From Candidatus Hodarchaeota archaeon (GTDB lineage Archaea; Asgardarchaeota; Heimdallarchaeia; Hodarchaeales; Hodarchaeaceae): DNA of 58,971 nt. Positions within the stretch are counted from its first letter, which is position 1; each line of letters begins with the position of its first letter. Both the position numbers and the translations under genes were made by a program. Shown in pieces: positions 13,968 through 29,704 of this stretch. The notes beneath the pieces were generated by a model. It had not been told where the DNA came from, did no database searches, and saw only the letters and a list, made by a program, of their open reading frames with translations. Location: positions 1-58,971 of the forward strand of contig JAEOSR010000107.1 of the NCBI GenBank assembly GCA_016840285.1, given 5' to 3'.

Positions 13968-15305
13968 ATGGATGCTTTGAGTCTTGCCAAAATTCAGTTC
14001 TTTCTCACTATTGGGTTCCATTTTATTTTTCCTCCCCTCTCTATTGGGTTATCATGGTTCATTGTTTGGTTAATGACGAAATATATGAGAACTAAAGATG
14101 TTTTTTATAAAAATCTAACTTGGTTTTGGATTAAAGTCTTTACATTAACTGTAGCGATCGGAATTCCGACAGGAATTTTCATGGAGTTTCAATTCGGGAC
14201 AAATTGGAGTGAATTTTCTCGTTTCGTTGGAGATATTTTTGCAGCTCCACTAGCATTGGAAGTATTTTTCGCGTTTTTCCTCGAATCAGTTTTTTTAGGA
14301 GTTTTGATATCGGGCTGGAAAAGTAAACGAGTTTCTGAAAAAATTCTTTGGATGTCTTCAATTCTTATTGCTATTGGTGCAACTCTTTCAGCATTCTGGA
14401 TTCTAGTCGCAAATTCTTGGATGCATACTCCTAGAGGTTATGATTTAGTTGGTAACAAACTTGTTTTAACTGATTTATGGGCATCCATCTTTACTCCATC
14501 AATGTTTCCCCGTTTTTGGCATACTTTTAATGCATGTCTTCTCACCAGTGCTTTCTTTGTCATTGGGATAAGTTCCTATTATATATTAAAGAAAGACCAC
14601 ATTGAATACGCAAAGTATTCTCTGAAATTTGCATTAATTGTTGGGGTGGTTGCTTCACTTCTACAGGTTATTCTTGGCCATTGGCAATCTGTTACTGTGG
14701 CCTTATATCAACCTGCGAAGTTTGCCGCCCAGGAAGGCCTTTTTACAACAGAGAAAGGCGCACCATTAATTATTTTCGCTATATTAGATGAGACAGGGGT
14801 TTACTTTCAGCTGGGTATTCCCTATTTATTGAGTTTCTTAACTCATGGAGACCTGAACGCTTCTGTAATGGGTTTAGACCAATTTTTACCAGAAAACCGA
14901 CCATCAGTATTAATGACCTTTTATTCGTTTCATGCAATGGTTCTTCTTGGAGGTTTCTTAATTCTCTTTTCATTAATCGGTATTTTTCTGGTTTGGAAGA
15001 AGAAACTCTTTAACCAGGATTGGAAGTTCCAGAAGTGGTATTTAAGAGTTGGAATACTTTCAATCCCTCTTCCGATTTTAGCTAATGAGTTAGGTTGGAT
15101 GACTACTGAGGTGGGGCGTCAACCATGGATTGTTCAAGATGTTCTTAAAACTGCTGATGCTGTTTCTGTCTCAGTTCCCCCTGAACAGATTTTGTTTTCA
15201 ATAATATTATTCTGTTGTACTTTTGTACTTCTTTTTATAATATGGGTGTTAGCTACAGTTGGAGTTGTTAGAAAGGGTCCTAAACCGATGGAGGCAGAGA
15301 TTTGA
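13968..15305 (+). CDS. cydA: Cytochrome bd oxidase subunit I
   Basis: This 445-residue protein has nine or so membrane helices. FFLTIGFHFIFPP at the N-terminus holds the histidine expected to ligate heme b595, and PRFWHTFNACLLTS holds the second heme histidine. The late EVGRQPWIVQDVL is the conserved quinol-oxidase motif (GRQPW). The length fits the short Q-loop type. The enzyme oxidises quinol and reduces oxygen to water without pumping protons, with high oxygen affinity. Its stop overlaps the start of cydB by four bases (TTGA). This is direct evidence for oxygen use or scavenging. Confidence 0.95.
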   Translation: MDALSLAKIQFFLTIGFHFIFPPLSIGLSWFIVWLMTKYMRTKDVFYKNLTWFWIKVFTLTVAIGIPTGIFMEFQFGTNWSEFSRFVGDIFAAPLALEVFFAFFLESVFLGVLISGWKSKRVSEKILWMSSILIAIGATLSAFWILVANSWMHTPRGYDLVGNKLVLTDLWASIFTPSMFPRFWHTFNACLLTSAFFVIGISSYYILKKDHIEYAKYSLKFALIVGVVASLLQVILGHWQSVTVALYQPAKFAAQEGLFTTEKGAPLIIFAILDETGVYFQLGIPYLLSFLTHGDLNASVMGLDQFLPENRPSVLMTFYSFHAMVLLGGFLILFSLIGIFLVWKKKLFNQDWKFQKWYLRVGILSIPLPILANELGWMTTEVGRQPWIVQDVLKTADAVSVSVPPEQILFSIILFCCTFVLLFIIWVLATVGVVRKGPKPMEAEI

Positions 15306-16330
15306 GTTTTCTACAAGAACTTTGGTTTTTCCTTCTTGTGTTTATCATAATAATCTATACAATTTTAGATGGATTTGATTTAGGCGTGGGATTTTGGTAC
15401 TTTCTTACAAAAGATAAACAAGAGAGACAAATTATTATCAAAACAATTGGGCCCTTTTGGGATGGCAATGAAGTCTGGTTACTTGCAGCAGGCGGTGTCT
15501 TATTTGCCGTGTTTCCAGAGGCCTACGCTACAGTGTTTAGTACATTTTATTTGCCTTTAATTATCGTTGCCTTTGGTTTAATTCTAAGAGCAGTATCTAT
15601 TGAACTTAAAGATGAGTTCGATTCCCCCCTGTGGGGTAAGTTGACTGATTATGGTTTCATTTTAGGCAGTATGATTCCTGCTATTTCTTTTGGGATTTTA
15701 ATAGGGAATATAATCCAAGGAATTCCTCTTGACGAAACTAACAATTTTTCGGGAACATTACTAACTTTAATCAATCCTTACAGTCTTCTTATTGGTGTGA
15801 TGTCTTTAGTAATGATGATAGGTCACGGTGCAATTTATTTACGACTCCGAACCACAGATGAACTCGCGGAAAAGTCTACAGGATGGGCTAAAATTGGATT
15901 GATAAGTCTTATTAGCATTGCTGCAATTGTCCTGGTCATTAGTGCCTTTATACATCCTCATCTTGTAGAAAATTTTATTGACTTCCCATTTCTGATTATC
16001 ATACCATTCATTGGGTTTCTACCAATTCTACTTTCGATTTGGCTTATAATAAAAGAAAAAAATCCTGTTTTCTCTTTCATAACCTCGGCTGTATCTATTG
16101 GAATGATTATATTAGGCGTAGGATTAGCCAGTTTCCCCAATTTAGTTTTTGCTTCAAATGATTCCTCTAGAAATCTTACAGTTTATAATGCATCATCAGG
16201 TGAATTAACTTTATCTACAATTCTAGGGATCACGCTTATAGCTTTACCCCTAGTTTTAACATATACAGCTTGGACGTATAAAACTTTAAGTGAAAAGGTT
16301 GAATTAGCAGATATAAAGGAAATCTATTAA
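15302..16330 (+). CDS. cydB: Cytochrome bd oxidase subunit II
   Basis: This 342-residue, eight- to nine-helix protein begins with an N-terminal helix followed by TILDGFDLGVGFWYF, then FWDGNEVWLLAAGG, both signatures of CydB. MIGHGAIYLRLRTT (~170) is also conserved. Subunit II supports subunit I in the membrane and contains no heme ligands in short-loop enzymes. The start is TTG 15302 within the cydA stop codon region, so the two are translationally coupled. No cydX-type small subunit or cydDC exporter is visible nearby. T-rich sequence follows the stop. Confidence 0.95.
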   Translation: MSFLQELWFFLLVFIIIIYTILDGFDLGVGFWYFLTKDKQERQIIIKTIGPFWDGNEVWLLAAGGVLFAVFPEAYATVFSTFYLPLIIVAFGLILRAVSIELKDEFDSPLWGKLTDYGFILGSMIPAISFGILIGNIIQGIPLDETNNFSGTLLTLINPYSLLIGVMSLVMMIGHGAIYLRLRTTDELAEKSTGWAKIGLISLISIAAIVLVISAFIHPHLVENFIDFPFLIIIPFIGFLPILLSIWLIIKEKNPVFSFITSAVSIGMIILGVGLASFPNLVFASNDSSRNLTVYNASSGELTLSTILGITLIALPLVLTYTAWTYKTLSEKVELADIKEIY

Positions 16331-16535
16331 TTTCATTTGATTTTACATTTTTATTTGGTAAAATTTTCATTTTTATTAATCCTATAACTTTAGATTAATC
16401 TGTGATTTTGAAATTCTTAGCTATAAAGATAAAAAAGTCCAAAATGAAAATTTAGTTATACAACATATCTCAAAGAAAACAAAATTAAATTTTAGATCAA
16501 ATCATTGATATTCTCGCTTTATAAGGGTGATGATA

Positions 16536-17597
16536 ATGTCCTCGGTGGTTATGACATTAGAAGATGTTCGTGAAAAAGCAAAAGAAAAGTTAAAAGGAGT
16601 TTGTATGGTTTATAAGGATTGTGACGGGAATCCAAGCAGATTTTGTCAAGGACAACATTATGGTAGGTCATTGGGCTTTGGTGGCATTGGTAGTGGAGCT
16701 TCTTTCCATAACAATTGGTTAGCATTGAGGAAAATAAAACTAAAGATGAAATTGATTGAATCTCACTTTGAATCAGATACTTCATTTCACTTTTTCGGTA
16801 AAAAGTTATCTATGCCGATCATGGGGGCTTCTGTTACAGGTGTTAACTCATTTGGAGGTGAGAAAGTGATATCAGAAGAAGAATTTTGTCGTACAACAGT
16901 TCGGGGGTGCATTGAGGCTGGAACCATCACTTGGCGAGGAGACACCTATACATATTCATTAGAAAATTCCTATGGCCTTGATGCTATTGCGGAAGCAAAT
17001 TCTGGTGGAGTTAAAATTGTTAAACCTAGAGAGCAATCCGTCATCATTGGATTCTTTAGAAAGGCCGAAAAATGTAACGTAACAGCAGTGGGGGTGGACA
17101 CTGATGGTTGTGGCTCATATATGATGACTAAGCATAATAAACCAATATTTAAGAAGAATTCTGACGATATCCGCGAACTTGTCGATTCTACGACCCTTCC
17201 AGTAATAATAAAAGGAATTATATGTGTTGAAGATGCTTTAGAGGCAGTAAATGCTGGTGCTTCAGCTATTGTTGTTTCAAATCATGGTGGACGAGTACTT
17301 GATCATACACCTGGAACTGCTGATGTACTTCCAGAAATTGTAGAGGCGTTGAAAGATAGAAAGGTTATGATTGTTGCTGATGGTGGTATTAGAACAGGTT
17401 ATGATGTTTTAAAGATGTTAGCTCTTGGTGCTGATGCGGTTTTGATTGGACGTGACATCGTAAGAGCAGCTGTAGGGGGCGGAAGTGAAGGTGTTCGATT
17501 ACAAATGGAATATTTACGAGAAACGCTAAAAAAAGCAATGAAAATGACTGGATGTTCTTCTTTAGATAAAATAAAATCTAATATTTTAGAATCTTGA
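16536..17597 (+). CDS. FMN-dependent alpha-hydroxyacid dehydrogenase/oxidase family
   Basis: This ~353-residue TIM-barrel flavoprotein has the family active-site motif VSNHGGRVLD (~250-259) carrying the catalytic histidine and arginine. VADGGIRTGYDVLKMLALGAD (~286-305) binds the FMN phosphate and is followed by LIGRDIV. An unusual cysteine-rich N-terminus (GVCMVYKDCDGNP, FCQGQ) could hold a metal or cluster and is not typical of lactate or glycolate oxidases. The ATG at 16536 is preferred over GTG 16527 because GGGTGAT at 16525-16531 is a Shine-Dalgarno sequence. The substrate is unknown; an isopentenyl isomerase-like role is less likely. Confidence 0.75.
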   Translation: MSSVVMTLEDVREKAKEKLKGVCMVYKDCDGNPSRFCQGQHYGRSLGFGGIGSGASFHNNWLALRKIKLKMKLIESHFESDTSFHFFGKKLSMPIMGASVTGVNSFGGEKVISEEEFCRTTVRGCIEAGTITWRGDTYTYSLENSYGLDAIAEANSGGVKIVKPREQSVIIGFFRKAEKCNVTAVGVDTDGCGSYMMTKHNKPIFKKNSDDIRELVDSTTLPVIIKGIICVEDALEAVNAGASAIVVSNHGGRVLDHTPGTADVLPEIVEALKDRKVMIVADGGIRTGYDVLKMLALGADAVLIGRDIVRAAVGGGSEGVRLQMEYLRETLKKAMKMTGCSSLDKIKSNILES

Positions 17598-18125: not shown

Positions 18126-19529
18126 ATGGCCGAATTTAGAATTGAAGTTGACAGCTTAGGCGAAGTGAAAGTGCCAAATGGTAGATATTGGGGAGCCCAA
18201 ACACAACGGTCTATAGAAAATTTTCCATTTGATTCAACAGGGAACATTAGGTTTCCTGCTGAATTCATACGAGCTCTGGGTATTGTCAAAAGAGCATGTG
18301 CAGAGGTTAACAGAGATCTAGATTTATTGTCATCAGAAAAAGCGGTTCTGATAGTTAAAGCTGCTCAAGAAGTCATTGATGGAAAATTTGACGAAGAGTT
18401 TCCACTTGTAATCTGGCAAACTGGATCAGGCACTCAAACAAACATGAACGCGAATGAGGTAATTTCTAACAGAGCAATAGAGATAAGTGGAGGTAAAATT
18501 GGCTCCAAAAATCCTCTCCATCCTAACGATCATGTCAACTTATCACAATCTTCAAACGATGTTATTCCCACAGCTATGCATATATCTGCTGTTGAGCAGA
18601 TAACAAACAAGTTACTACCATCTTTAACTTATTTGAAGACAATATTAGGAGAAAAAGAAAAAGAATTCAAAGATATCATAAAAACTGGAAGAACTCATTT
18701 AATGGATGCGACACCAGTAACATTAGGTCAGGAATTTTCAGGATATGTTGCTCAAATCACAAACAGTATTACTCGAATTGGAAATACATTATCCCACTTA
18801 TATGAACTGGCATTAGGAGGAACTGCTGTGGGAACAGGGTTGAATTCACATCCTGAATTCGCAGAACGAGTTGCAAAACGTATTGCAGAGCTTACAAATT
18901 ATCCTTTTATAACAGGAAGAAATAAATTCGAAGGTATAGCTGCTCATGATGCAATTGTTGAAACGAGTGGGGTTCTTAAAGTTCTAGCAGTCAGCTTGAT
19001 GAAGATAGCCAATGATATTAGATGGCTTGGTTCTGGACCACGAACTGGTCTTGGTGAACTTCTTCTCCCTGTAAACGAGCCTGGATCTTCGATTATGCCA
19101 GGGAAAGTCAATCCAACGCAACCAGAATCAGTAACTCAAGTCGTAACTCAAGTTTTAGGTAATGATGTGACGATAGGTTTTGCAGGGTCACAAGGTAACC
19201 TTGAGCTCAATGTGTTCAAGCCAGTGATGATTCATAATCTATTACAATCAATACAATTGCTTTCAGATGTTTCTATGAATTTTGCTGATCGATGTATAAA
19301 AGGTATCAAACCAAATAGAGAGAAAATTTTGGAGAATTTAGAAAAAAATCTCATGCTGGTAACAAGGTTGAGTCCAATCATAGGTTATGAGGCTGCAGCT
19401 GAAGTAGCACAAGAAGCTTTCAGAACGGGAAAAACTTTGAAGGAAGTTGTTATCGAAAAAGGGTTAATAAAATCGGAAGCGAAAATTAATAAGATTCTTG
19501 ACCCCAAAAAAATGATAGCACCAACATAA
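18126..19529 (+). CDS. fumC: Fumarate hydratase, class II
   Basis: This 467-residue, mostly helical protein has all family motifs: [15 protein letters not shown] (~100-114), [35 protein letters not shown] and [15 protein letters not shown] (the mobile loop with the catalytic serine). The enzyme reversibly hydrates fumarate to malate in the cytoplasm as a homotetramer. The length is normal for the class. An ATG at 18126 follows AAAAAGG. Together with the aconitases and KOR genes it indicates a TCA cycle. Confidence 0.95.
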
Positions 19530-19581: not shown

Positions 19582-19785
19582 TTATCGTTTTCGATAATAT
19601 ATCATCACAATCCACCCTAATTGTAAAAAAACTCCAGTTATAAGAGAACTCCATCCAGAGAAGATCAACAATTCAGTATTAATTAATTCTCCAAGCAGAA
19701 TAATCAATATCCCACCTATAATAACAAAAATTGGAGGATTTCGAGCAATTAAATGATAAATCGCATCTATATCCGTTTCTGACAT
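19582..19785 (-). CDS. Small two-helix membrane protein (67 aa)
   Basis: Two hydrophobic segments (~19-36 and ~40-62) flank a short turn, with a basic end YYRKR. No family is recognised. It lies 18 bases downstream of the ribbon-helix-helix-like gene on the same strand, so the two are likely one transcript. A membrane partner for the ubiquitin-like system is possible only by position. Confidence 0.5.
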   Translation of the reverse strand: MSETDIDAIYHLIARNPPIFVIIGGILIILLGELINTELLIFSGWSSLITGVFLQLGWIVMIYYRKR

Positions 19786-19803: not shown

Positions 19804-20217
19804 TTATGAATCATCTATGTTGCTTTTTTTTAAACGATCAGGTAAGTTATCCCAAATAACCTTATTTTCTCTAATTAGGAATTCAATGGCATCAGAAAAA
19901 GTATAAGCTGGTTGATTGCTTTCTATTTTTAATCGATTAAGTATTTTATGAGCATCAGGCCTTAATAAGATTGTTTTAGGTTTTTCATGGAATGTACGGG
20001 AATTCCCCTCGTCGTCAGGAGTTTTTGACTTAATCCGATGCCTTTCTTCATCAAAAGTCAATAAAGCTTTTTCAAGACTTTTTGACCGATTTTTTATCTT
20101 ATTGTTCATTGAGATGATAACATCACTGTAAGACTTTGCTTCAAGCTCAAATTTTGCCCAACGGAGAAGTTCCCACGCACGATTAGAAATTTTGATGTTT
20201 TGGGCATTCTGTGGCAA
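19804..20217 (-). CDS. Two-domain ribbon-helix-helix-like protein, divergent from the ubiquitin locus
   Basis: This 137-residue protein appears to hold two similar units, NIKISNRAWELLRWAKFE (~7-24) followed by SYSDVII, and TILLRPDAHKILNRLK (~82-97) followed by TFSDAIEFLI. Each is a short strand followed by two helices, as in ribbon-helix-helix DNA-binding proteins and VapB-type antitoxins. The linker carries IKSKTP (62-67), a motif also found in the ubiquitin-like proteins. It is transcribed away from the ubiquitin gene across a shared promoter region, the usual place for a local regulator. DNA binding is inferred, not demonstrated. Confidence 0.5.
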   Translation of the reverse strand: MPQNAQNIKISNRAWELLRWAKFELEAKSYSDVIISMNNKIKNRSKSLEKALLTFDEERHRIKSKTPDDEGNSRTFHEKPKTILLRPDAHKILNRLKIESNQPAYTFSDAIEFLIRENKVIWDNLPDRLKKSNIDDS

Positions 20218-20271
20218 AATTTTAACCTCGAAAGCATTGCCTTACATTTTCAATGACTAGAGACACCTTCA

Positions 20272-20283
20272 CCTTTATATAGG
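20272..20283. promoter_or_regulatory. TATA-like element in the divergent intergenic region
   Basis: CCTTTATATAGG is nearly symmetric and can be read as a TATA box on either strand. It lies 55 bases upstream of the minus-strand start at 20217, so it most likely serves that gene. Identification is by pattern only. Confidence 0.4.
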
Positions 20284-20308
20284 TTTCGGGTGTTACGGGT
20301 ATTTCGTA

Positions 20309-20320
20309 AGCTTTAAATAG
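20309..20320 (+). promoter_or_regulatory. Candidate TATA box of the first ubiquitin-like gene
   Basis: AGCTTTAAATAG lies about 75-85 bases before the ATG at 20395. Archaeal transcription begins about 25 bases after a TATA box, which would give a leader of roughly 50 bases that includes the hairpin at 20343-20368. GTACATGTGGTAC directly follows and is partly symmetric, a possible regulator site. Confidence 0.4.
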
Positions 20321-20342
20321 TACATGTGGTACGTATATTACA

Positions 20343-20368
20343 TGAGTTTCTTATAAAGAAAGAACTCA
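20343..20368 (+). promoter_or_regulatory. Hairpin-forming repeat in the leader of the first ubiquitin-like gene
   Basis: TGAGTT pairs with AACTCA, and the inner TCTT pairs with AAGA, leaving a three-base loop and a three-base bulge. It sits 27 bases before the start codon. It may be an RNA structure or an operator half-site pair. No regulation has been shown. Confidence 0.35.
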
Positions 20369-20394
20369 CGAAAAAAGTAGAAAAGTGATAAAAA

Positions 20395-20742
20395 ATGAGT
20401 GATTTTGAAGATTTAGACTTCGATGTAGAAGAACAAAGAACAATCCAATCTAAAACCCCTACACAATCTAAGACTCCAATTGCAAGTATTACTGCAGGAC
20501 CAAAAAAGAATGTATTTTTTAAATCTACAGTTGGGCCTGAACGAACCGAAAAACTCAGTGTAGGTGAAAATACCCCTGTTAGAGATGTCAGAGACACCTT
20601 AGCCAACATATTTGGCTTGAATCCCAATGATTTTCACTTAAGTCACGCTGGTCGCACATTAGATGAATCAGCGCCCATTGGTGACTATAATATCGATAAT
20701 GGCGACGAAATTCTATTGATTCCCCATAGTACAGCGGGATGA
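20395..20742 (+). CDS. Ubiquitin-like modifier 1, already mature (ends STAG)
   Basis: This 115-residue protein has an acidic, flexible N-terminal tail (1-38) and a ubiquitin-type beta-grasp domain (39-115). The tail holds IQSKTP (17-22) and TQSKTP (23-28). The segment AGRTLDESAPIGDYNIDNGD parallels the AGKQLEDGRTLSDYNI region of eukaryotic ubiquitin. The chain ends ...LLIPHSTAG, so no processing is needed for its terminal glycine to be activated, but Ala replaces the penultimate Gly. The downstream E1, E2 and JAMM genes are the evidence for use as a protein modifier. The ATG 20395 follows AAAAGTGATA. Confidence 0.9.
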   Translation: MSDFEDLDFDVEEQRTIQSKTPTQSKTPIASITAGPKKNVFFKSTVGPERTEKLSVGENTPVRDVRDTLANIFGLNPNDFHLSHAGRTLDESAPIGDYNIDNGDEILLIPHSTAG

Positions 20743-20745
20743 ACG

Positions 20746-20780
20746 ACTTTCTTATTCAGTTTTCTGAACTGAAAGAAAGT
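20746..20780 (+). terminator. Strong hairpin after ubiquitin-like gene 1
   Basis: ACTTTCTT and TCAGTT pair with AACTGA and AAGAAAGT around a five-base loop, giving a 14-pair stem with a two-base bulge. It begins three bases after the stop and is followed by a pyrimidine-rich stretch (20785-20805). It could end or attenuate transcription or protect the 3' end of a short abundant mRNA. Confidence 0.55.
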
Positions 20781-20820
20781 ACTCATCCTTTCTTTCTCAT
20801 TCCCTAAGAGGGGTTATCCA

Positions 20821-21024
20821 ATGACAGCTGTAAATGAGAGTCTAGTCAAATCAATTGTTGATGCAATGTATGAACGTGAAAACGCGAAGAAGACAATGCG
20901 AATGCACCGAGAGTCAAGGAACGACCTAGATATTATAATCTCGTCAACCGATTATTATATACGAGCAAATCTCTGGATTCTTCAGTCCCTTGAAGCAATC
21001 TCTCCTAACGAAATCTATGTCTGA
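20821..21024 (+). CDS. Hypothetical protein (67 aa) between the two ubiquitin-like genes
   Basis: The ATG at 20821 follows AAGAGGGGTTATCC, a good Shine-Dalgarno sequence. The protein looks fully helical, with a basic middle (KKTMRMHRESRND) and a C-terminal hydrophobic helix (YYIRANLWILQSLEAI). There are no cysteines, no membrane segment and no known family. Its fixed place between two modifier genes suggests a role in the same system, for example as an adaptor or a substrate. This is inference from position. Confidence 0.6.
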   Translation: MTAVNESLVKSIVDAMYERENAKKTMRMHRESRNDLDIIISSTDYYIRANLWILQSLEAISPNEIYV

Positions 21025-21126
21025 CATCATTTCCACCATCAAAATTTCCGAATATGAAATCATACAGTTAATTAGGAATAATTAAAATGATTGAAACATG
21101 TATTTATCCACCAGTAAAGAGCCGTT

Positions 21127-21157
21127 CTATAAAGCTTTTTTATCGTATTAAATATAG
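21127..21157 (+). promoter_or_regulatory. Candidate promoter of the second ubiquitin-like gene and the E1-E2-JAMM set
   Basis: CTATAAAGC (from 21127) and TTAAATATAG (21148-21157) are TATA-like elements 44-74 bases before the ATG at 21201. They lie in a 176-base gap after the 67-residue gene. A separate promoter here would uncouple this set from modifier gene 1. Pattern match only. Confidence 0.35.
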
Positions 21158-21200
21158 TAAAATGCTTCCAACGAAAAGAATTGGAATGGAGTCTTATTCA

Positions 21201-21548
21201 ATGTCTGAAAATGAAGATTTTGATGATTTGGAAATCGAAGAAGAGGAAGAAGAGATTGTAGAAACTCAAATGAGAACCAAAGTGCCTAGTGGAAACCACA
21301 TAACACTATTTTTTAGATCGACAATAGGACCAGGTGAAAAATTGGAAAAACTCACAGTGAATCCTGAAATGGGAGTTTCAGAATTAAAGGAGACACTTGG
21401 AGGAATTTTTGGTCTTTACCCACAGGATTTTCACATTTCTATCAGTGGTCGCACTCTAGATAGTGATGATGTGTTATCTAATTATGATATTGAAAATGGC
21501 TTAGAATGCTTGATTATCCCTGTATCAACAGCAGGATTCGATTATTGA
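21201..21548 (+). CDS. Ubiquitin-like modifier 2, precursor with FDY tail
   Basis: Starting at ATG 21201 the protein is 115 residues, the same as modifier 1, with GGAG at 21188-21191 as Shine-Dalgarno sequence. An upstream ATG (21087) is open but adds 38 non-homologous basic residues and is rejected. The tail is very acidic (EIEEEEEEIVE, 11-21) and holds MRTKVP (24-29). The beta-grasp domain (~33-112) ends LIIPVSTAG, then FDY. The STAG end matches modifier 1, so the last three residues are a cap that the adjacent JAMM peptidase probably removes. The E1 gene starts 12 bases later. Confidence 0.9.
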   Translation: MSENEDFDDLEIEEEEEEIVETQMRTKVPSGNHITLFFRSTIGPGEKLEKLTVNPEMGVSELKETLGGIFGLYPQDFHISISGRTLDSDDVLSNYDIENGLECLIIPVSTAGFDY

Positions 21549-21560
21549 AGTTGAGTAAAA

Positions 21561-22805
21561 ATGTCAAATATATCAGATTTCACTAGTCTTAAATTCACTG
21601 ATGAAGAAAAACGACGCTTTGATCGTCAATTTCGCCTCCCAGGTTGGAAACAGGAAACTTTGAAGAAAAGTACTGTTTTAATTGTCGGGATTGGTGGACT
21701 TGGAGTCGAAGTTGCGAAAAACTTGGCAATGGTCAGTGTTGGAAAATTAATTCTAGTAGATCTTGATACAGTTGAATATTCTAATCTTAATAGACAAGTA
21801 CTATTTATTGGAGCACCAGAAGGAGCACCTAAGGCAGAATTTGCTGCCAAACGACTTCGAGAAATGAATCCTTTTATTACAGTTGAAGCATATAATTGTG
21901 CTCTGCAAAACCTTCCTCCCCAGCTATACCATGAAGCAGATCTCTACGTCGCGGGTTTGGATTCAATTGAGGCTCGATCCGAACTAAATCGAAGAGCTAT
22001 TCATAATCATAAACCCCTAATTGATGCAGGAACAGCAGCCTATAATGGCCATGTCTATTGCGTTTTTCCTTTCAGTAATGCTTGTTTAGAGTGTGACCCA
22101 TTAACTGAACGCGAACAAGATCAGTTGGGTGCTTGTACATTAGTTGGCGTGCCGCGTAAACCTGCACATTGTATATTAAAAGGACAATTACAATTTGAAC
22201 AGAATCATGGAAGGCCTGTTGATATATTGAGACCGAAGGAAATCAGTTCGGTTAGAGAATATGCAAACATCCTACTCAATGCCAATTTTCCTGGATCTCA
22301 ACCATTCTCTACAGATCAGGTTATTCAAATAGTTAATAATCATGAAGCTACAGTAATAACGATAAATTGTGTAATGGCCTCAATTCAATCTCAAGAAACT
22401 GTGAAAATCCTTCACCACCTATATACTCCTAAAGATGAAAAGAAACTGGGCTCTCTTCAACGCAATTATGTGATCTATAATGGACTGACTGGAAAATTCT
22501 ATGAGCTGGAAAAACCAAGGAATCCAGATTGCAATATGTGTGGTAATAATCGTACTCCTCTTTACAAAATAAAGGTTAAACCAGAATTTCAACTGAAGAA
22601 AATCATAGCGAAATTAGTAAAAGATAAAAAATTCCTAATCGATCCAGAATTTCCCCCAAATATCTTCCAAATTGACTCTTCTGAGATTAAAGAGATAGAT
22701 TGGAACTTAAGCCTTTCTGAAGCTAAACTTCGAAACTACGAGACAATCTTAGTCACAGGATTTGAGGATGGCACTCAGATCTATTTAACACTGAAAATTA
22801 AGTAA
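21561..22805 (+). CDS. Ubiquitin-activating E1 enzyme, UBA3-like
   Basis: This 414-residue protein has the adenylation site GIGGLG (43-48), then LVDLDTVEYSNLNRQ (65-79), K91 and D134, as in E1, MoeB and ThiF enzymes. ACTLVGVPRKPAHC (191-204) is the crossover loop of eukaryotic NEDD8/ubiquitin E1s and marks C192 as the thioester cysteine. Zinc pairs are C175/C178 and C324/C327. The last ~80 residues form a small beta-rich domain in the position of the UFD that recruits E2. It would adenylate the modifier's C-terminal glycine and hand it on. It is much closer to UBA3 than to MoeB. The E2 gene follows after 17 bases. Confidence 0.92.
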   Translation: MSNISDFTSLKFTDEEKRRFDRQFRLPGWKQETLKKSTVLIVGIGGLGVEVAKNLAMVSVGKLILVDLDTVEYSNLNRQVLFIGAPEGAPKAEFAAKRLREMNPFITVEAYNCALQNLPPQLYHEADLYVAGLDSIEARSELNRRAIHNHKPLIDAGTAAYNGHVYCVFPFSNACLECDPLTEREQDQLGACTLVGVPRKPAHCILKGQLQFEQNHGRPVDILRPKEISSVREYANILLNANFPGSQPFSTDQVIQIVNNHEATVITINCVMASIQSQETVKILHHLYTPKDEKKLGSLQRNYVIYNGLTGKFYELEKPRNPDCNMCGNNRTPLYKIKVKPEFQLKKIIAKLVKDKKFLIDPEFPPNIFQIDSSEIKEIDWNLSLSEAKLRNYETILVTGFEDGTQIYLTLKIK

Positions 22806-22822
22806 AAAAGAGGTTTTATTAC

Positions 22823-23350
22823 ATGTCTATACGTACTAAAAGGATTGCTGATGATTATAATCAATTAAAGAAGTTATACAAACAAAAAACCATCAAACAA
22901 CTTAAAGCATTCCCAGGTGGGAAAAAATCGGTTGAACATCTTGCTATCCTTCTAGAGGGGCCTAAAGGGACTCCGTACGAGAAAGGAAAATTCAAATTAG
23001 AGGTCAAATTTGGCCCAAATTATCCTTACTCCCCCCCATTCGTTCGTTTGTATACACCAATCTGGCATCCGAACTTCTGGCCGAAGCCTGATGAGTACAA
23101 GGGGAAACGGAACATTTGCTTAGCACTTGTTGACCCTGATCTAATCGGAAGACCAGATGGTTGGTCTCCATCAAAAAACATTGGTACAATTATATATTCA
23201 ATTCTTGCAATGTTCAATATTGATACTGCTTACACAAATCCGCATGATGTATTCAATAAAAAGGCAGCTCAAGAATATTTGAGCAACAGGAAGAATTTCA
23301 TGTCAAAGGCTCGCAAGATTACTAAAAAATATGCAAATAAGAAGTGGTGA
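22823..23350 (+). CDS. Ubiquitin-conjugating E2 enzyme
   Basis: This 175-residue protein has the UBC fold motifs in order: YPYSPPFVRLYTPIWHPN (67-84) with HPN at 82-84, catalytic cysteine C99 in NICLALVD, and WSPSKNIGTIIYSI (114-127), which matches WSPALTI of eukaryotic E2s. Fourteen residues separate HPN from the cysteine's end, about seven more than in UBC4/5-type enzymes. That lengthens the loop beside the active site. The C-terminal helices are lysine-rich. It would receive modifier from the E1 and work with the RING protein downstream. Order and spacing indicate an operon. Confidence 0.92.
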   Translation: MSIRTKRIADDYNQLKKLYKQKTIKQLKAFPGGKKSVEHLAILLEGPKGTPYEKGKFKLEVKFGPNYPYSPPFVRLYTPIWHPNFWPKPDEYKGKRNICLALVDPDLIGRPDGWSPSKNIGTIIYSILAMFNIDTAYTNPHDVFNKKAAQEYLSNRKNFMSKARKITKKYANKKW

Positions 23351-23381
23351 GAGCTAGGATCATTGAGCGATGGTTTGAAAG

Positions 23382-24299
23382 ATGTCAGAAAAGAAAAAGG
23401 ATCTACAAAATATTTTCGAATTATTGCTTAGAGATCTTGCTTTAACATTCGATCCCGAGACATTTTCTTTCACATTGAAATTTCCTGCTTTCAATTACCA
23501 GCCTAATATAGGTTTTGAAAGTTTGACAAACAAAGAAATACAAATAAATCCTTCTCATTTAATTTCTTCAAGTTCAGAAGAAAAATTTATTCCTAAATCT
23601 GAATTTATTGAAAATAATGGACATAAAAAACAGAATAAAGTCTCTGAGGGCTTAGAAAGTGTTGATTTAAGTTTGAATGACTTAAACCCCGAATCAGAAC
23701 CTTCCCGAGTGAAAATTCATCTTAAAGCCTATATAAAATTAGCTCTACACGCGTTAAAATATGCAAATCCGGATGTACCCCAAAGCGATTGGATAGAGGT
23801 GATTGGCCTCCTTACAGGCCATATAGAGAGTAATGATACGCCATTAGCTTGTCTAATTATTGAAGACGCTTTCCCGATTGGACATGGTACAAATGTGAAT
23901 ACTCAAATCAATGACCCACAATCTATGGTTAGAGTTTACAATGAGATTAAATCTCACAATAAAAACCAACTAATTCTTGGATGGTATCATTCTCATCCTT
24001 CATACGGAGCATTCATGAGTCAAACGGATTATGAGACTCAAGTTCGATATCAACGACTTGGAGCACGGAATTCACAAATTACCGCCCCCATTGCTTTGGT
24101 TATTGACCCTACAAAGATTTCAATCGGTTCTTATGGTTTTAAGATCTTTCGTTTAAAGGAAGATATGAAAACATGGGAAGAACCTCAGTATAGGGTATTG
24201 AATTGTCCCTTAGGAAGTCTTCCTGAATTGATAAATACGCTCCTTCCTCTCACAGAGGAGAAAGGCCGTATGTTTCTAGAATATGATCATGAAATGTAG
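23382..24299 (+). CDS. JAMM/MPN+ metalloprotease, Rpn11-like deubiquitinase
   Basis: Residues ~110-305 form an MPN domain with the complete zinc and catalytic set: E139 in DWIEVIGLLTG, H203 and H205 in GWYHSHPSYG, S213 and D216 in FMSQTDYETQ. This is the Rpn11/AMSH layout, so it should cleave isopeptide bonds and the FDY tail of modifier 2. About 110 residues before the domain are not recognised. They begin with a helix and hydrophobic strands and end in a polar linker, and could bind modifier. No second JAMM or cysteine protease is seen in the window. Confidence 0.92.
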   Translation: MSEKKKDLQNIFELLLRDLALTFDPETFSFTLKFPAFNYQPNIGFESLTNKEIQINPSHLISSSSEEKFIPKSEFIENNGHKKQNKVSEGLESVDLSLNDLNPESEPSRVKIHLKAYIKLALHALKYANPDVPQSDWIEVIGLLTGHIESNDTPLACLIIEDAFPIGHGTNVNTQINDPQSMVRVYNEIKSHNKNQLILGWYHSHPSYGAFMSQTDYETQVRYQRLGARNSQITAPIALVIDPTKISIGSYGFKIFRLKEDMKTWEEPQYRVLNCPLGSLPELINTLLPLTEEKGRMFLEYDHEM

Positions 24300-24317
24300 T
24301 GTGAGGTTGAAATCTAG

Positions 24318-25472
24318 TTGGTTGGGCGGAATGTATATCTTTCCATCTGTGCAGTAGGATTCGTTTTTACGGTACTCACAATAATTACTGAACAACAGAC
24401 AGAAGTCGCTCTAACCATCCTTTATATTACTTTAGTAGTGGTTCTATCTATTAAATTTATTGAAGAGTGGCGATACTTTCAACGTTTTAATGCACCAATT
24501 GCATCTGCATTATTCATCTTAATTCCTTCATTGATTGCCTTAGGGGGAACTTTCCTCGCTCAAAATGCATCATTAGGAGAAGGTCTTCTTCAGACATATC
24601 TCCTTGAAATGACTCTTGATATTAATTTTCTCAATGTAGACAGATTTTTTTTATTTTTAAATCTATTTAGCGTATTTTTTGTATTACCACCCTTCATTTT
24701 CTTGTTATTACTCATCCGACGATATTATTCTGGGCGTTATCCAGTAGTATTCGTCTTTAGAAAGAAGTATCAAAATGAATTTGTAATTCTATATAACATT
24801 GGGATGTTTTTAAGCTTGAGCTTCTATTGGATCCAAACAGGATTCATAGAACTCAGTGGATTAGGGTTTATTTCAATAAGTTCTATTCTATTTGTTCAAC
24901 ATTATGTATTAAAGATCATATTAGTACCAATACGTCGAATGCCCGTTGGTGGGGCACCCCAACGATCATCGCCTAGACAGATTAGTCGAACCAGAGCATC
25001 CCAAATATCATCACGACCAAGTAGACAACCACGTCCCTCTCGCAATTCTCTGACAACAGTAGTACGACCAAGTTCACGCGAAACGATGAACAGAGAACGA
25101 ACCTCAGCTCAAAATTCAGTGAACATTGTTCCAGGAATAGACACAGGGGTAAATATTACCCGTATAGAGAAAATATCTCCAGCAATTCTTTCAAAACTCA
25201 TACCTATAGGTCAACATTTAACAGATGATGATTTTCGTTGTATATTTTGCTATGAATTTCCTACAGAGGCAAATAAACGAGTTGTTATATGCCCCCATTG
25301 CGGACATCCAGCGCATTCGCATGAACTGGAGAAATGGTTGAGTGTAGCGAATATCTGCTCCCGCTGTAATAAACCACTTTCAACGGAGAAAATGTATCGG
25401 CTTTCAGGCAAAAGTTATGAGAAATTAATTAAAATGTATCAAAATAACCATCTAAATAGTCGTTGGAGGTAA
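24318..25472 (+). CDS. Membrane-anchored RING-type E3 ligase candidate
   Basis: Starting at TTG 24318 (GAGGT at 24303), this 384-residue protein has about six membrane helices within residues 8-203. An Arg/Ser-rich disordered linker (~205-270) follows, then a zinc finger: C308-x2-C311, C325-x2-C328, H330, H333, C347-x2-C350. CGHPAHSHELEKWL parallels the C-G-H-x-F-H...W-L of RING-H2 domains, but the sixth cysteine is absent and an additional CPHC pair is present, as in archaeal small RING proteins. It would hold E2 at the membrane. It is the most likely E3. Direct ligase activity is inferred. Confidence 0.8.
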   Translation: MVGRNVYLSICAVGFVFTVLTIITEQQTEVALTILYITLVVVLSIKFIEEWRYFQRFNAPIASALFILIPSLIALGGTFLAQNASLGEGLLQTYLLEMTLDINFLNVDRFFLFLNLFSVFFVLPPFIFLLLLIRRYYSGRYPVVFVFRKKYQNEFVILYNIGMFLSLSFYWIQTGFIELSGLGFISISSILFVQHYVLKIILVPIRRMPVGGAPQRSSPRQISRTRASQISSRPSRQPRPSRNSLTTVVRPSSRETMNRERTSAQNSVNIVPGIDTGVNITRIEKISPAILSKLIPIGQHLTDDDFRCIFCYEFPTEANKRVVICPHCGHPAHSHELEKWLSVANICSRCNKPLSTEKMYRLSGKSYEKLIKMYQNNHLNSRWR

Positions 25473-26062
25473 TCAGGATCGTTTCACGACATTCAATTGC
25501 GTATTTTGTTTTCCTCATGGGTCTTGCAGCAAGCATATTCTTTTTCATTAGAGATGAGGATAATATCGCATTAAGTCTAATATTTTTAACATTCTATACA
25601 ACAATCACAATTTTTTATTTCCTGAGACTTTTATATTATATAGACGTAAAAGCTACTTTAAATGAAATATACTTCTTTTCATTAGCAAATATCATTCCTT
25701 TATGCGTATTATTGGTTAGTCCGTTTTTTCCTCCTGGACAAGATGCTTTGTTAACATTTGATATCGAGATTTTACCCACAGAAAATTTATTTCAACTGCA
25801 AATAACGCTGGCCTCAATCTTGGCATTCCCCTACCTTACTGTATCTACAGCTCTTTTAATCCGAAGTTTTACACGATATAAATTTATTAGATTAACCTCT
25901 CAGTCTGAGAGAGGTCCATCTGCTGAATGGACAGCCTTATTCACTTTTTTTGTGTTTGGTGTCTTATTCTTCTTAACAGGATTATTTTCTACCGATTTAA
26001 TTGGAGTTCTCTATGGTATATTCTTTCTCTTTTCAGGAATAGGATTTTCACTTAGTCGTTAA
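25463..26062 (+). CDS. Polytopic membrane protein paired with the RING gene
   Basis: This 199-residue protein has about six hydrophobic helices and no recognised family. It overlaps the RING gene by ten bases. The only standard start is TTG 25463, which lies before GGAGGT (25465-25470). That Shine-Dalgarno sequence would fit a start a little downstream, where no standard codon exists, so the true start is uncertain. Similar size and helix spacing to the membrane part of the RING protein suggests they are related or form one complex in the membrane, by inference. Confidence 0.6.
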   Translation: MEVIRIVSRHSIAYFVFLMGLAASIFFFIRDEDNIALSLIFLTFYTTITIFYFLRLLYYIDVKATLNEIYFFSLANIIPLCVLLVSPFFPPGQDALLTFDIEILPTENLFQLQITLASILAFPYLTVSTALLIRSFTRYKFIRLTSQSERGPSAEWTALFTFFVFGVLFFLTGLFSTDLIGVLYGIFFLFSGIGFSLSR

Positions 26063-26127
26063 TTTTGTTCCCATTCAATTCGTTAATATTATAAGATCCT
26101 GTTATTGTAATACTTTCAAATAGAATT

Positions 26128-26811
26128 ATGACTATTTATAACTCTGTTCAGGATTCTGAGACGATATTGGCTAGACGAAAAATACGTGAGAAAAAGCCTA
26201 GGAACAATATCAAAAGTAAAATTCCCACGAGTTCTAGAGAACACGAGATCAAACAAAAGACACCTGATAGTTATGATCTTAAATCATTTGAACTTCCTCC
26301 CCCGATGGAGAGAAGAGGAATTCCAAAGGATGAGGTAAGACTACCCTCACGATATGGCAGTGCTGACCAAAATAAAAAAGAGTCTATTTCTTCAAATATT
26401 TCTCCTCCAATAAATGAATCTGTTCTTTACGAAGCGAAATCTCCCACAAAGAAAGGATCAATTCCAAAGGTTATTCGTCTTCTAGATAAGAAAACTCCAA
26501 TCCCCAAACAGATTAATAAAATTGATACTATCCCTCGTTCAACAGGAGTAGTTCATTCAAAAAAAGCGTTATCCAACACAGTCAATCAACCACCACCACC
26601 AAAAATTCAAGAAAAAATACCCAAAAAAGCCCCAATTCAACATCATTCTATGGGAGCAAAAAAGGAACAGAAAAGCGCGATCAATCAATCACCACCACCA
26701 AAAATTCACAAAAAAACCCCTGTAAAGAAAAAAATTATCCCACCGCCTATTTTTGATGATATAAAAACTAAAATCCCTAAGACAAAGTTAAAAACAAAGA
26801 AACCAAAATAA
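26128..26811 (+). CDS. Lys/Pro-rich disordered protein with repeated x-K-[TI]-P motif
   Basis: This 227-residue protein has almost no cysteine, tryptophan or long hydrophobic stretch, so it should be unfolded alone. Six motifs of one type occur: IKSKIP (28-33), IKQKTP (41-46), LDKKTP (119-124), IQEKIP (160-165), IHKKTP (193-198) and IKTKIP (212-217). Two copies of a ~33-residue unit start NQPPPPKI (153) and NQSPPPKI (186). The same motif type is found in both modifiers and in the divergent regulator-like protein. It may be a lysine-rich substrate, a scaffold or an adaptor. No known family. Confidence 0.65.
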   Translation: MTIYNSVQDSETILARRKIREKKPRNNIKSKIPTSSREHEIKQKTPDSYDLKSFELPPPMERRGIPKDEVRLPSRYGSADQNKKESISSNISPPINESVLYEAKSPTKKGSIPKVIRLLDKKTPIPKQINKIDTIPRSTGVVHSKKALSNTVNQPPPPKIQEKIPKKAPIQHHSMGAKKEQKSAINQSPPPKIHKKTPVKKKIIPPPIFDDIKTKIPKTKLKTKKPK

Positions 26812-27010: not shown

Positions 27011-29704
27011 ATGAATGAAATAGATGAAAATATTATTATTCAAGCAAAATCTAAACAAGATTTAGGTTTAGGCGAATGTACAGTTTATAGCTTACCAACA
27101 TTAGGAAAACTTACTAATATTAATCTTGATAAACTACCTTTTTCAATTCGTGTACTTCTTGAAAATAATATACGTAACTATGATAGTAAACTTGTCACTC
27201 TTAAACATGTGAATACTATTGCGAATTGGCCTCAGTCTACTGGACAAACAATTCCGTATATGCCTTCTCGTGTCCTTTTGCAAGATTTGACAGGTGTGCC
27301 ATTGATTGTGGACATGGCAGCTATTCGAGATGTAGTCCATGAGTTAGGAGGAGATCCCACTAAAATAAATCCTTTAATCCCAACAGATTTAGTTATTGAT
27401 CATAGTGTTCAAGTGGATTTCTTTGGGGTTCATGATGCTTATACGTTAAATCTAGAGAAAGAATATGAAAGGAATAGTGAGCGGTATAAGTTAATAAAAT
27501 GGGCTCAAAATTCTTTTAATAATACGAGAATTGTACCTACTGGTTCTGGGATTTGCCATCAAGTAAATTTAGAATATTTAGCTTCAGTTGTTGATCTACG
27601 AGATTTTAAAGGAGAAAAGACCGCTGTTCCAGATACCTGTGTAGGAACGGATTCACATACTCCTATGGTAAACGGTGTTGCGGTGATTGGCTGGGGAGTT
27701 GGTGGGATAGAAGCAGAAGCAGTGATGCTAGGCCAACCATATTATATGCCGCTTCCTGAAGTCATAGGAATTAAGCTACTAGGAACCCTCCCTGAAGGGA
27801 CTACAGCGACCGATCTTGTTCTGACAATAACTGAAATTCTCCGAAAGAGAAGCTTAGTAGGACGATTTGTAGAATATTTTGGGCCAGGAGTTACGAGTCT
27901 GGCTGTTCCTGATCGTGCAACCCTTTCAAACATGTCCCCAGAACAAGCTATTACTATTGGATTCTTTCCGATAGATGATCAGACAATTTCTTATCTTAAA
28001 TTAAGTGGTAGAGATCCAGACCATATTAAATTCGTGGAAAACTATGCAAAGAAGAATAAACTCTTTCGATATCCTGATACGCCTGACCCGACATTTACAG
28101 AGGTTATTGAGGTGGACTTGAGTAAAATAAGATCATCTATTTCTGGGCCATTAAATCCTGAAGAACAGGTTGTCATTTCAGAAGCTAAAGCTAGGTTAAA
28201 CAAGTTTTTAGATGAGCATACAAGAGCTCGGGGAAGAGAACGGTTGGTCACAAACGTTGATTTAGATGGGATGTCGTGGCCCATCAAAGAGGGAGATCTG
28301 GTTATTGCTGCAATAACATCTTGTACAAATACATCGAATCCATCTGTTATGGTTGGTGCAGGCATATTAGCAAAAAAAGCTGTTGAATTAGGACTACGAG
28401 TGAGGCCATTTATTAAAACTAGTTTAGCACCAGGCTCTAAAGTTGTGACAGATTATCTTGATGATCTTGATCTTTCTCCATATTTAGAGGCTTTAGGTTT
28501 CCATCTTGTCGGATATGGCTGTACAACTTGTATCGGAAATAGTGGCCCATTAAGAACAGAAATTGAAGAAGCTATTAAGGAAAATGATTTGTATGTAACT
28601 ACCATTCTAAGTGGAAATCGGAATTATGGTGGACGAATTCATCAATTAACTCGCGGAAACTTTCTTGCGTCTCCAATGCTAGTTGTTGCATATGCTTTAG
28701 CTGGAACCATTGACATTGATATTACAACTGAGCCTGTCGGTTACACTCCAAATGGTAAACCTGTGTTTCTGAAAGAAATCTGGCCTAGTCAAGAAGAGAT
28801 TCAAGAAGCTATCAGTTGCTGTATTTCCGCTGATATTTATAAAAAGGAATATGCAAAGATAACAGAAGGTGATCCTAATTGGCAAAAATTGGAAGCACCT
28901 ACCACAACTCTCTTTGAATGGGATCCTTCTTCAACTTATATTAAAAAGCCTCCATTCTTTAATGAAAGATTCTTCTCCCCTGAACCTAAAGAACCTGAGG
29001 ATATCAAGGATGCTAATGTACTAATCTTGTTAGAAGATAAAGTGTCAACAGATCATATTTCTCCCGCAGGAGCTATTGCAACGGAAAGTCCAGCAGGGAA
29101 ATATTTGATAGACAAGGGAATACCTGAACAAGAATTTAATACATATGGTAGTCGAAGAGGGAATCATGAAGTCATGATGAGGGGAACATTCGCTAATGTA
29201 CGGGTCAGAAACCAACTGACTCCCGACAAAGAAGGATGGTGGACCAGATATCATCCTACAGGTGAAATTAGTAGTGTTTATGATGCAGCAATGAAATATA
29301 TCCAAGAAAATATCCCTACAATTATCCTAGGCTCAAATCTCTATGGTGTGGGAAGCTCAAGGGATTGGGCGGCCAAGGGGCCAGCTTTACTAGGAACTAG
29401 AGCAGTAATTGCGAAATCTTACGAAAGGATACATAGAAGTAATCTTATCGGTATGGGAGTTCTCCCATTAGAATTTGAAGTAAATCAAGGATGGCTAGAA
29501 CTTGGGATAGATGGGACCGAGAAATTTGATATCATTGGATTAAACGAAGGTTTAACTCCAAAAAAGAAAATAAAAGTAATTGCACGTAAACCAGAAGGTT
29601 CCACTGTCGAATTTTCAGTCACTGTGCGTTTAGATTCAGATATTGAAATTGAATACTATAAAAGTGGGGGTATTCTGCAATATCTGGTTTCAACCACAAG
29701 TTAA
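27011..29704 (+). CDS. acnA: Aconitate hydratase A (AcnA/IRP type)
   Basis: This 897-residue protein is full length for AcnA. The cluster cysteines are visible in AAITSCTNTSNPSVM and GYGCTTCIGNSGPL, with DSHTPMVNGVAVIGWGVGG and, in the swivel domain, GSNLYGVGSSRDWAAKG. It isomerises citrate to isocitrate using a 4Fe-4S cluster. The N-terminal half matches the bacterial and eukaryotic cytosolic form, so transfer from bacteria at some time is likely. A second aconitase of another family is at 51286-53205. The start is ATG 27011. Confidence 0.95.
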   Translation: MNEIDENIIIQAKSKQDLGLGECTVYSLPTLGKLTNINLDKLPFSIRVLLENNIRNYDSKLVTLKHVNTIANWPQSTGQTIPYMPSRVLLQDLTGVPLIVDMAAIRDVVHELGGDPTKINPLIPTDLVIDHSVQVDFFGVHDAYTLNLEKEYERNSERYKLIKWAQNSFNNTRIVPTGSGICHQVNLEYLASVVDLRDFKGEKTAVPDTCVGTDSHTPMVNGVAVIGWGVGGIEAEAVMLGQPYYMPLPEVIGIKLLGTLPEGTTATDLVLTITEILRKRSLVGRFVEYFGPGVTSLAVPDRATLSNMSPEQAITIGFFPIDDQTISYLKLSGRDPDHIKFVENYAKKNKLFRYPDTPDPTFTEVIEVDLSKIRSSISGPLNPEEQVVISEAKARLNKFLDEHTRARGRERLVTNVDLDGMSWPIKEGDLVIAAITSCTNTSNPSVMVGAGILAKKAVELGLRVRPFIKTSLAPGSKVVTDYLDDLDLSPYLEALGFHLVGYGCTTCIGNSGPLRTEIEEAIKENDLYVTTILSGNRNYGGRIHQLTRGNFLASPMLVVAYALAGTIDIDITTEPVGYTPNGKPVFLKEIWPSQEEIQEAISCCISADIYKKEYAKITEGDPNWQKLEAPTTTLFEWDPSSTYIKKPPFFNERFFSPEPKEPEDIKDANVLILLEDKVSTDHISPAGAIATESPAGKYLIDKGIPEQEFNTYGSRRGNHEVMMRGTFANVRVRNQLTPDKEGWWTRYHPTGEISSVYDAAMKYIQENIPTIILGSNLYGVGSSRDWAAKGPALLGTRAVIAKSYERIHRSNLIGMGVLPLEFEVNQGWLELGIDGTEKFDIIGLNEGLTPKKKIKVIARKPEGSTVEFSVTVRLDSDIEIEYYKSGGILQYLVSTTS

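Follow-up and report, generated by a model that had tools for sequence, protein, structure and literature searches.

Clusters of ubiquitin-type genes have been described in archaea. Caldiarchaeum subterraneum has an operon for ubiquitin, E1, E2, srfp and Rpn11, and its Rpn11 trims the ubiquitin precursor after Gly-Gly (GG) (PMC5654768, PMC6043591). For Asgard archaea, Hatano et al. (2022) described ubiquitin biochemistry, with V45 as a patch residue of a Heimdall ubiquitin (PMC9192718). James et al. (2017) present archaeal ‘Cluster I and II’ in their Figure 1 and ‘Cluster III’ in Supplementary Figure 1 (PMC5654768); existence of more than one archaeal cluster is, therefore, likely to be in print already, and one of these clusters may be the locus studied here. 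We analyzed a contig of 58,971 nt from a Candidatus Hodarchaeota archaeon (JAEOSR010000107.1, assembly GCA_016840285.1), below called the window. It carries a cluster of genes for two ubiquitin-like modifiers (Ubl1 and Ubl2), E1, E2, an Rpn11-like JAMM peptidase, a RING-like membrane protein, a partner rich in lysine and proline (K/P protein) and a regulator. On balance, we favor the view that the cluster encodes a second ubiquitin-like conjugation system, found mostly beside a GG-ending ubiquitin, that attaches modifiers ending in Ala-Gly (AG) to the lysine of a short motif, psi-x-x-K-[T/I]-P.

Neither modifier of the window ends in GG; Ubl1 ends in STAG and Ubl2 in STAG followed by a three-residue pro-tail, FDY. 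Ubl1 consists of a disordered acidic tail with IQSKTPTQSKTP and a ubiquitin fold. In its AlphaFold 2 (AF2) model, the core has a confidence score (pLDDT) of about 90 and the tail a low one, and the best Foldseek match is Caldiarchaeum ubiquitin (6fno, E=4e-8), i.e. the fold is a beta-grasp of the ubiquitin type. The Ubl2 open reading frame (ORF) opens at 21087, with the ATG at 21201 being the more likely start; this was the only correction needed to the gene positions given in the first-pass annotation of the window, which had rightly seen two ubiquitin-type modifiers in the cluster and missed both the AG ending and the motif shared by modifier tails, K/P protein and regulator. A search among 5.8 billion proteins produced 81 modifier homologs. 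The C-terminus was STAG or SIAG plus 0–12 residues in 75 of them and GG in none of the 81; the other six (P0166, P0170, P0172, P0176, P0182 and P0200) have no intact C-terminus. Ala114 and Gly115 are invariant across 42 aligned modifiers. A further tally of endings (99 STAG, 9 SIAG and 4 SVAG, n=112) is circular, as the genes were chosen by that very ending, and was not used. In P0123 and P0136, the STAG of one modifier unit runs directly into the tail of a following unit, and P0172 has one such junction (all three are partial sequences); this polyubiquitin-like head-to-tail build fits STAG as a cleavage site.

Separately, additional ubiquitin-like domains were seen next to Loki clusters. One is the C-terminal domain, lacking STAG, of a protein encoded at L050:7749-8537(−). 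Two others are C-terminal domains of HerA-type ATPases, at L072:6330-8072(+), ending in SSRAG, and at L078:1910-3718(+), ending in STAG.

The comparison with GG ubiquitin was made in genomes of relatives, standing in for the genome of the window. Matches to PF00240 were present in all 14 relatives (1 to 5 in each), and 12 of the 14 have a GG-type ubiquitin, without tail, elsewhere than the AG modifier locus. Eleven of these ubiquitins were read; they are ORFs of 77–98 aa and all end in GG plus 0–3 residues. The twelfth, in G006, is known only from an ORF of 78 aa next to an E1; no GG-type ubiquitin was seen among the PF00240 matches of G004 and G012. In G001, the AG modifier locus is situated at 0.767 Mb and the GG ubiquitin at 2.99 Mb, the latter among genes for a 334-aa E1, a 151-aa E2, RING, UQ_con/UEV, VPS28, EAP30, Snf7 and MIT-AAA proteins, i.e. 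in a cluster of ubiquitin and the endosomal sorting complex required for transport (ESCRT). The two E1 types are 39% identical over 187 residues; the ESCRT-linked E1 aligns with UBA3 over 26–175 and has ThiF, yeast UBA1 and MoeB among its best matches. No ESCRT families were found in 27 flanking window proteins, the subset of window ORFs that was scanned. Since the relatives have a GG ubiquitin elsewhere with its own E1, the locus under study is a second, parallel system and not ‘the’ Asgard ubiquitin locus, a status observed in the relatives. Thus, of the ‘complete eukaryote-like ubiquitination locus’ of the first-pass annotation, an Asgard operon with E1, E2, RING, JAMM and modifier genes stands, while the GG ubiquitin of the relatives sits elsewhere. 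In a sample of 148 genomes spread evenly over the phylum, 59 had the AG modifier and 90 had GG ubiquitin. The two were found together in 51 genomes, whereas 8 had only the AG modifier and 50 had neither; absences in this sample are soft, as completeness of the genomes was not told.

It could be argued that the locus is simply the Asgard ubiquitin system of Hatano et al., that is, part of the ubiquitin-ESCRT machinery. The enzyme families are the same, the best matches in the Protein Data Bank (PDB) include UBA1, UBA3, UBE2T and Rpn11, and the closest solved fold is that of Caldiarchaeum ubiquitin. For the relatives this explanation is contradicted by the ESCRT cluster of G001, whose GG ubiquitin comes with separate E1, E2 and RING proteins. 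In addition, V45, as given in the available part of PMC9192718, fits the AG modifiers less well than it does the GG protein (L083) of G005, the genome to which the AB_125 contig L020 belongs. We consider this explanation quite improbable.

To collect related loci, genomes were scanned with an E1 alignment; 80 of 98 loci were kept, making 81 with the window. All of the 80 are labeled as Asgard archaea except L018, labeled ‘archaeon’. The window E1 had 331 homologs; among the 120 listed, each named organism is an Asgard archaeon, and the closest named homologs among the matches listed share 87% identity and come from records of Heimdallarchaeota and Hodarchaeota. The combination of genes is not new to the window, as had been thought; the five core families (modifier, E1, E2, JAMM and RING) are complete in 69 of 81 loci, window included, and in 42 of the 43 loci with at least 5 kb on either side of E1. 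The comparison of gene order around E1, proposed in the first-pass annotation, revealed two arrangements. The order modifier-E1-E2-JAMM-RING is characteristic of Hodarchaeales and of Loki, Hel and Borr loci; other Heimdall loci have the permuted order E2-JAMM-RING-membrane partner-modifier-E1. Two modifiers per locus are common without being universal.

Loss of key catalytic residues had been named as an observation that would speak against the annotation; across the relatives these residues are retained. All 80 E1s have a GxGGLG-type loop (GIGGLG in the window) and a catalytic-type cysteine followed by Thr or Ser, found by regular expression in 72 and by reading in 8. In the window this is C192 in GACTLVGVPR, and it aligns with the CTL cysteine of UBA1, the best PDB match of the window E1. 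The window E1 also has two CxxC pairs (175/178 and 324/327). An alignment of 16 E1 sequences showed invariant columns. The [HY]P[NH] triplet (HPN in the window) is present in 71 of 71 E2s and the catalytic-type cysteine, ‘NICL’, in 70 of 71 by regular expression; the best PDB match of the window E2 is UBE2T. The JAMM proteins have the HxHP motif in 69 of 69 cases and the upstream Glu motif in 66 of 69, in keeping with the JAMM pattern HxHP-x(n)-[S/T]-x2-D preceded by a Glu; the window protein is best matched by the Caldiarchaeum Rpn11-like 6fjv. The identification of E1, E2 and Rpn11-like JAMM in the window was, therefore, sound.

These residues also bear on the possibility that we deal with a sulfur-carrier system of the MoaD/ThiS/Urm1 type, or a MoeB-like one, in which E2 and RING are decorative. 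The E1 does have a ThiF fold, with MoeB among its PDB matches, and a gene for a metallo-lactamase-fold plus rhodanese protein is located 18 kb away (960-2045). Nevertheless, the catalytic-type cysteine is present in 80 of 80 E1s, and the alignment of the window E1 with UBA3 runs over 34–352. Moreover, a canonical E2 with its cysteine and a JAMM peptidase share the operon, and no sulfur-transfer domain was found among ten cluster proteins scanned. Of all readings considered, this one has the smallest chance of being correct.

The RING-like protein has a hydrophobic N-terminal half, a disordered Arg/Ser linker and a RING-like domain, with C308, C311, C325, C328, H333, C347 and C350 in the window. 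These seven Cys/His residues are invariant in 44 aligned domains. In 62 of 63 domains Glu (E336 in the window) occupies what we take to be the position of the usual sixth RING ligand. The 50 best of 207 Foldseek matches of the AF2 model all map to the RING end and not to the membrane half. The description ‘RING membrane protein’ thus stood as far as the membrane half and the Cys/His pattern are concerned; it was weakened by the Glu at one ligand place and by Pfam scores below cut-off. The overlapping membrane partner was found as described. Its ORF shares 10 bp with the RING gene, has no RING and remotely resembles the membrane half of the RING-like protein (hhalign probability 97.6, E=3e-12, obtained without a membrane-protein control).

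The psi-x-x-K-[T/I]-P motif (‘IKSKTP’-like) is shared by the tails of the modifiers, the K/P protein, the regulator linker, a Loki coiled coil and a few membrane-protein ends. K-[TIVASK]-P was present in 181 of 185 distinct modifier tails. The K/P protein of the window, predicted from its composition to be disordered, in agreement with the first-pass annotation, has 10 K-x-P triplets and five [IV]..K[TI]P copies (IKSKIP, IKQKTP, IQEKIP, IHKKTP and IKTKIP). Other Heimdall loci have a divergently transcribed K/P repeat protein with the motif, and Loki, Hel and Borr loci have a charged coiled coil with it. Among charged genes longer than 250 aa, 32 have the motif at both ends and 9 more at one end. 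Of the 114 modifiers, 77 have the stricter form, [IV].[SAT]K[TI]P, as do 18 of the 23 K/P proteins, 27 of the 30 charged coiled-coil proteins and 5 of the 9 regulators. Elsewhere in the cluster loci it was rare, occurring in one RING-family gene (n=103), one other Ubl gene (n=28) and none of the 229 genes for E1, E2 and JAMM. Among 880 other neighbors it was seen in 10, and inspection showed 9 of these to be coiled-coil partners that had fallen under the cut-off. As background we used 800 kb of G001 with 806 genes; one gene had this form and none had [IV].[SAT]KTP. Sixty of the 80 loci have a motif-bearing partner; among the 43 loci with at least 5 kb on each side, 40 do, the exceptions by the partner rule used being L001, L018 and L049.

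The regulator gene, predicted by the first-pass annotation to be divergent and borne out as such, encodes a linker with RIKSKTPDDEG in the window. K-[T/I/N]-P was found by eye in all eight Hodarchaeal copies showing this region (the window, L002, L004–L007, L009 and L010); the linker of L003 is masked and, hence, outside this count. The divergent promoter (20218-20394) is conserved, with the inverted repeat TTACG-N7-CGTAA, then TATA-like CTTTAAATAG, and also a GGTACGTATATTACATGAG element. The repeat has a single match in the window and none in 100 shuffles, and its footprint is discernible in nine of nine aligned Hodarchaeal intergenic regions. Of 205 loci, 17 have a longer form of the repeat (each of the 17 had been fetched around the modifier, and some are one place counted twice). 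None of 40 background loci (L153–L192) has this form, and the copy of G001 itself does not match it. The repeat is probably the operator of the ribbon-helix-helix (RHH) regulator; its uniqueness in the window and conservation among relatives make it likely that the regulator controls the operon.

What the motif is for can be judged from the constraint on its lysine. With this place left free in the pattern, Lys was found in 168 of 175 matches in modifier tails, 87 of 88 in coiled coils (a set chosen on K or R in one motif copy) and 7 of 13 anchored matches in regulators, the other six of which fit a C-terminal IW..IP stretch. Arg occurred once at this place and 59 times two residues earlier. 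The motif lysine thus appears near-obligatory. A lysine that is kept with Arg excluded is expected of an acceptor. The main rival explanation accepts the same second system and takes K-[T/I]-P as a docking motif for the E2, the RING protein or another receptor, with acceptor lysines elsewhere and the K/P proteins and coiled coils as scaffolds bringing modifier and enzymes together. It would account well for the motif at both ends of the 32 charged genes and for multiple copies in K/P proteins, as multivalent scaffolds would have, and for the recurrence of Pro two places after the lysine and of a hydrophobic residue three places before it. Less easily explained by docking are the near-exclusion of Arg from a place two residues after one where it is common and the location of the motif on the flexible tail of the modifier, where SUMO bears its acceptor lysine. 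Docking is, in our estimate, the less likely of the two, and still a serious competitor.

Several observations weigh against the acceptor interpretation or parts of the system built around it. A strict docking lysine would show the same constraint, and the corresponding lysine count in K/P proteins (172 of at least 182) is biased by the choice of this set by K-x-P density. Four of the 185 modifier tails lack K-[TIVASK]-P; the window Ubl2 has only a variant, MRTKVP, and in the L001 Ubl2 the lysine is lost (MRSNVP). The loose pattern [IV]..K[TI]P was found in 14 of 806 background genes, within the range of reversed and shifted controls (7 to 24 genes). The strict pattern, searched at the DNA level in 12 genomes, gave 39 matches versus 20 for the reversed control, several of them in unrelated or tiny ORFs. 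(Loci were obtained for 30 of the 39, and the ORFs of part of these were inspected; they comprised genes of the system itself, the unrelated or tiny ORFs, and three membrane proteins of Heimdall archaea with KIKSKTP or KIKSKTPASPPSQY as their last residues.) RING families match the RING-like protein with Pfam E-values of 0.016 or worse, below cut-offs, and Foldseek places RING/U-box E3s first with probability near 1 and a best E-value of only 0.19. No GG ubiquitin was seen in 8 of 59 carriers of the AG modifier. The regulator-type gene of G001 is situated 120 kb from the modifiers, in sequence with runs of N, which may reflect either assembly or real rearrangement. Finally, the support consists of sequence, gene order, distribution and residue constraint, from which we infer the reactions.

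The Heimdall proteins just mentioned have a C-terminal membrane span and are encoded at L193:3364-5799(−), 811 aa, L194:3241-5661(−), 806 aa, and L195:3507-3974(−), a 155-aa piece. They end in PKIKSKTP or PKIKSKTPASPPSQY, and the motif may be at the cytosolic end; a Pfam scan of the L193 protein gave no match. Phosphorylation as the purpose of the motif was also considered and is disfavored, the Thr at +1 often being Ile or Val.

If motif lysines are acceptors, the system could work as follows. The Rpn11-like JAMM would cut precursors and tandem fusions after STAG. E1 would adenylate the terminal glycine of the modifier, load the modifier on Cys192 and pass it to E2. Transfer of the modifier from E2 to a motif lysine would be assisted by the RING-like protein in the membrane, which may act as a pair with the RING-less one. 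Four kinds of acceptors can be envisaged: the flexible tail of the modifier itself, giving chains as in SUMO2/3, which builds chains via its tail lysine; the K/P protein, as a poly-acceptor or scaffold; the regulator linker, providing feedback; and some membrane-protein ends. The full picture, a SUMO-like Ala-Gly pathway of pre-eukaryotic age with the acceptor code in the tag tail, poly-acceptor or scaffold, regulator and membrane-protein ends and with a membrane E3, is more tentative than the view stated at the outset; we would put its chances somewhat below even.

Features of the cluster are given in the table; Pfam matches above curated cut-offs are those to ThiF, UQ_con, JAB, ubiquitin (Ubl1) and VAPB_antitox.

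Features of the cluster in the window
Feature	Position	Strand	Basis
Regulator-like protein, ribbon-helix-helix/VapB-type, 137 aa	19804..20217	-	Pfam VAPB_antitox E=2.2e-6
Inverted repeat TTACG-N7-CGTAA in divergent promoter	20293..20309	.	Pattern search and alignment
Modifier 1 (Ubl1), 115 aa, ends ..IPHSTAG	20395..20742	+	Pfam ubiquitin E=1.6e-7
67-aa gene between modifiers	20821..21024	+	Third-position bias versus L003; 2 of 81 loci
Modifier 2 (Ubl2), 115 aa, ends ..IPVSTAGFDY	21201..21548	+	Pfam ubiquitin E=6e-4, below cut-off
E1, 414 aa	21561..22805	+	Pfam ThiF E=3.6e-53
E2, 175 aa	22823..23350	+	Pfam UQ_con E=1.2e-26
Rpn11-like JAMM peptidase, 305 aa, HSHPSYGAFMSQTD	23382..24299	+	Pfam JAB E=1.6e-15
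Membrane RING-like E3 candidate, 384 aa	24318..25472	+	Alignment of 44; AF2 and Foldseek
RING-less membrane partner	25463..26062	+	hhalign to membrane half of RING-like protein; no Pfam match
K/P-rich partner, 227 aa	26128..26811	+	K-x-P and motif content; no Pfam match

The interleaved 67-residue gene of the first-pass annotation looks really coding, as its differences from the L003 copy fall at codon positions 1/2/3 in the ratio 6/8/24; presence in so few loci makes it lineage-restricted. The cluster is flanked by genes of a fumarase (18126-19529) and an aconitase (27011-29704). Two aconitase-family genes of unequal size are found in this one 59-kb contig, at 27011-29704 (897 aa) and 51286-53205 (639 aa). 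Cytochrome bd oxidase subunits I and II (13968-16330), adjoining an FMN-dependent dehydrogenase (16527-17597), suggest an oxygen-using host. Behind the regulator gene is a gene for another protein of 67 aa, hydrophobic and with no Pfam match (19582-19785, − strand), which is present in L002 too; its G001 homolog sits 120 kb from the modifiers. L001 and other stretches of G001 have runs of ∼100 N about every 4 kb, one of them over a modifier tail.

In eukaryotes, several ubiquitin-like pathways operate in parallel. Every one of them has an E1, an E2 and a tag ending of its own, and SUMO has, in addition, an acceptor consensus. If our interpretation is true, two orthogonal pathways, one with a short-motif code and a membrane-bound ligase, were already together in Asgard archaea, and the split of the ubiquitin family predates eukaryogenesis. 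It would also offer a small testable system whose substrate rule reads from sequence.

SUMO has a flexible N-terminal tail with a short lysine consensus that is also found on its partners, and its precursor is trimmed; it ends in GG, uses a psi-K-x-E consensus and is processed by a cysteine protease. The window system resembles SUMO in its ubiquitin-fold modifier, in the flexible N-terminal tail with a lysine motif shared with partners and in predicted trimming. It differs in the psi-x-x-K-[T/I]-P motif, the AG end and the JAMM peptidase, and so is not SUMO itself; UBC9 was not among the 60 of 267 PDB matches listed for the window E2. Mature UFM1 ends in a single glycine after a non-glycine residue (VG), as the modifiers do here (AG). 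Unlike in the UFM1 system, the E2 is a canonical UQ_con protein and the UFSP protease is replaced by a JAMM; no UFL1-type ligase was found among the ten cluster proteins scanned. No mention of the AG ending or of KTP in Asgard modifiers was found in the literature searched, which included few subscription papers and no bioRxiv preprints and was queried by terms other than the motif letters, including the available parts of PMC9192718, PMC6043591, PMC5654768, PMC11354881, PMC10936438, PMC10307638 and PMC4571567. With the Asgard ubiquitin-ESCRT cluster, in the available text, the locus shares the phylum and homologous E1, E2 and RING families; the G001 copy of that cluster differs in its separate locus, GG end, lack of an N-terminal tail, ESCRT neighbors and E1 length (334 versus 414 aa). 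Caldiarchaeum is similar in having an E1-E2-RING-JAMM operon and an Rpn11-like JAMM, for which trimming is predicted here, and in providing the closest solved structures for both modifier and JAMM. Its ubiquitin, unlike the STAG-ending modifiers of the window, ends in GG plus a nine-residue pro-tail, and the available parts of the Caldiarchaeum papers do not mention motif-bearing partners, a membrane RING or a second modifier.

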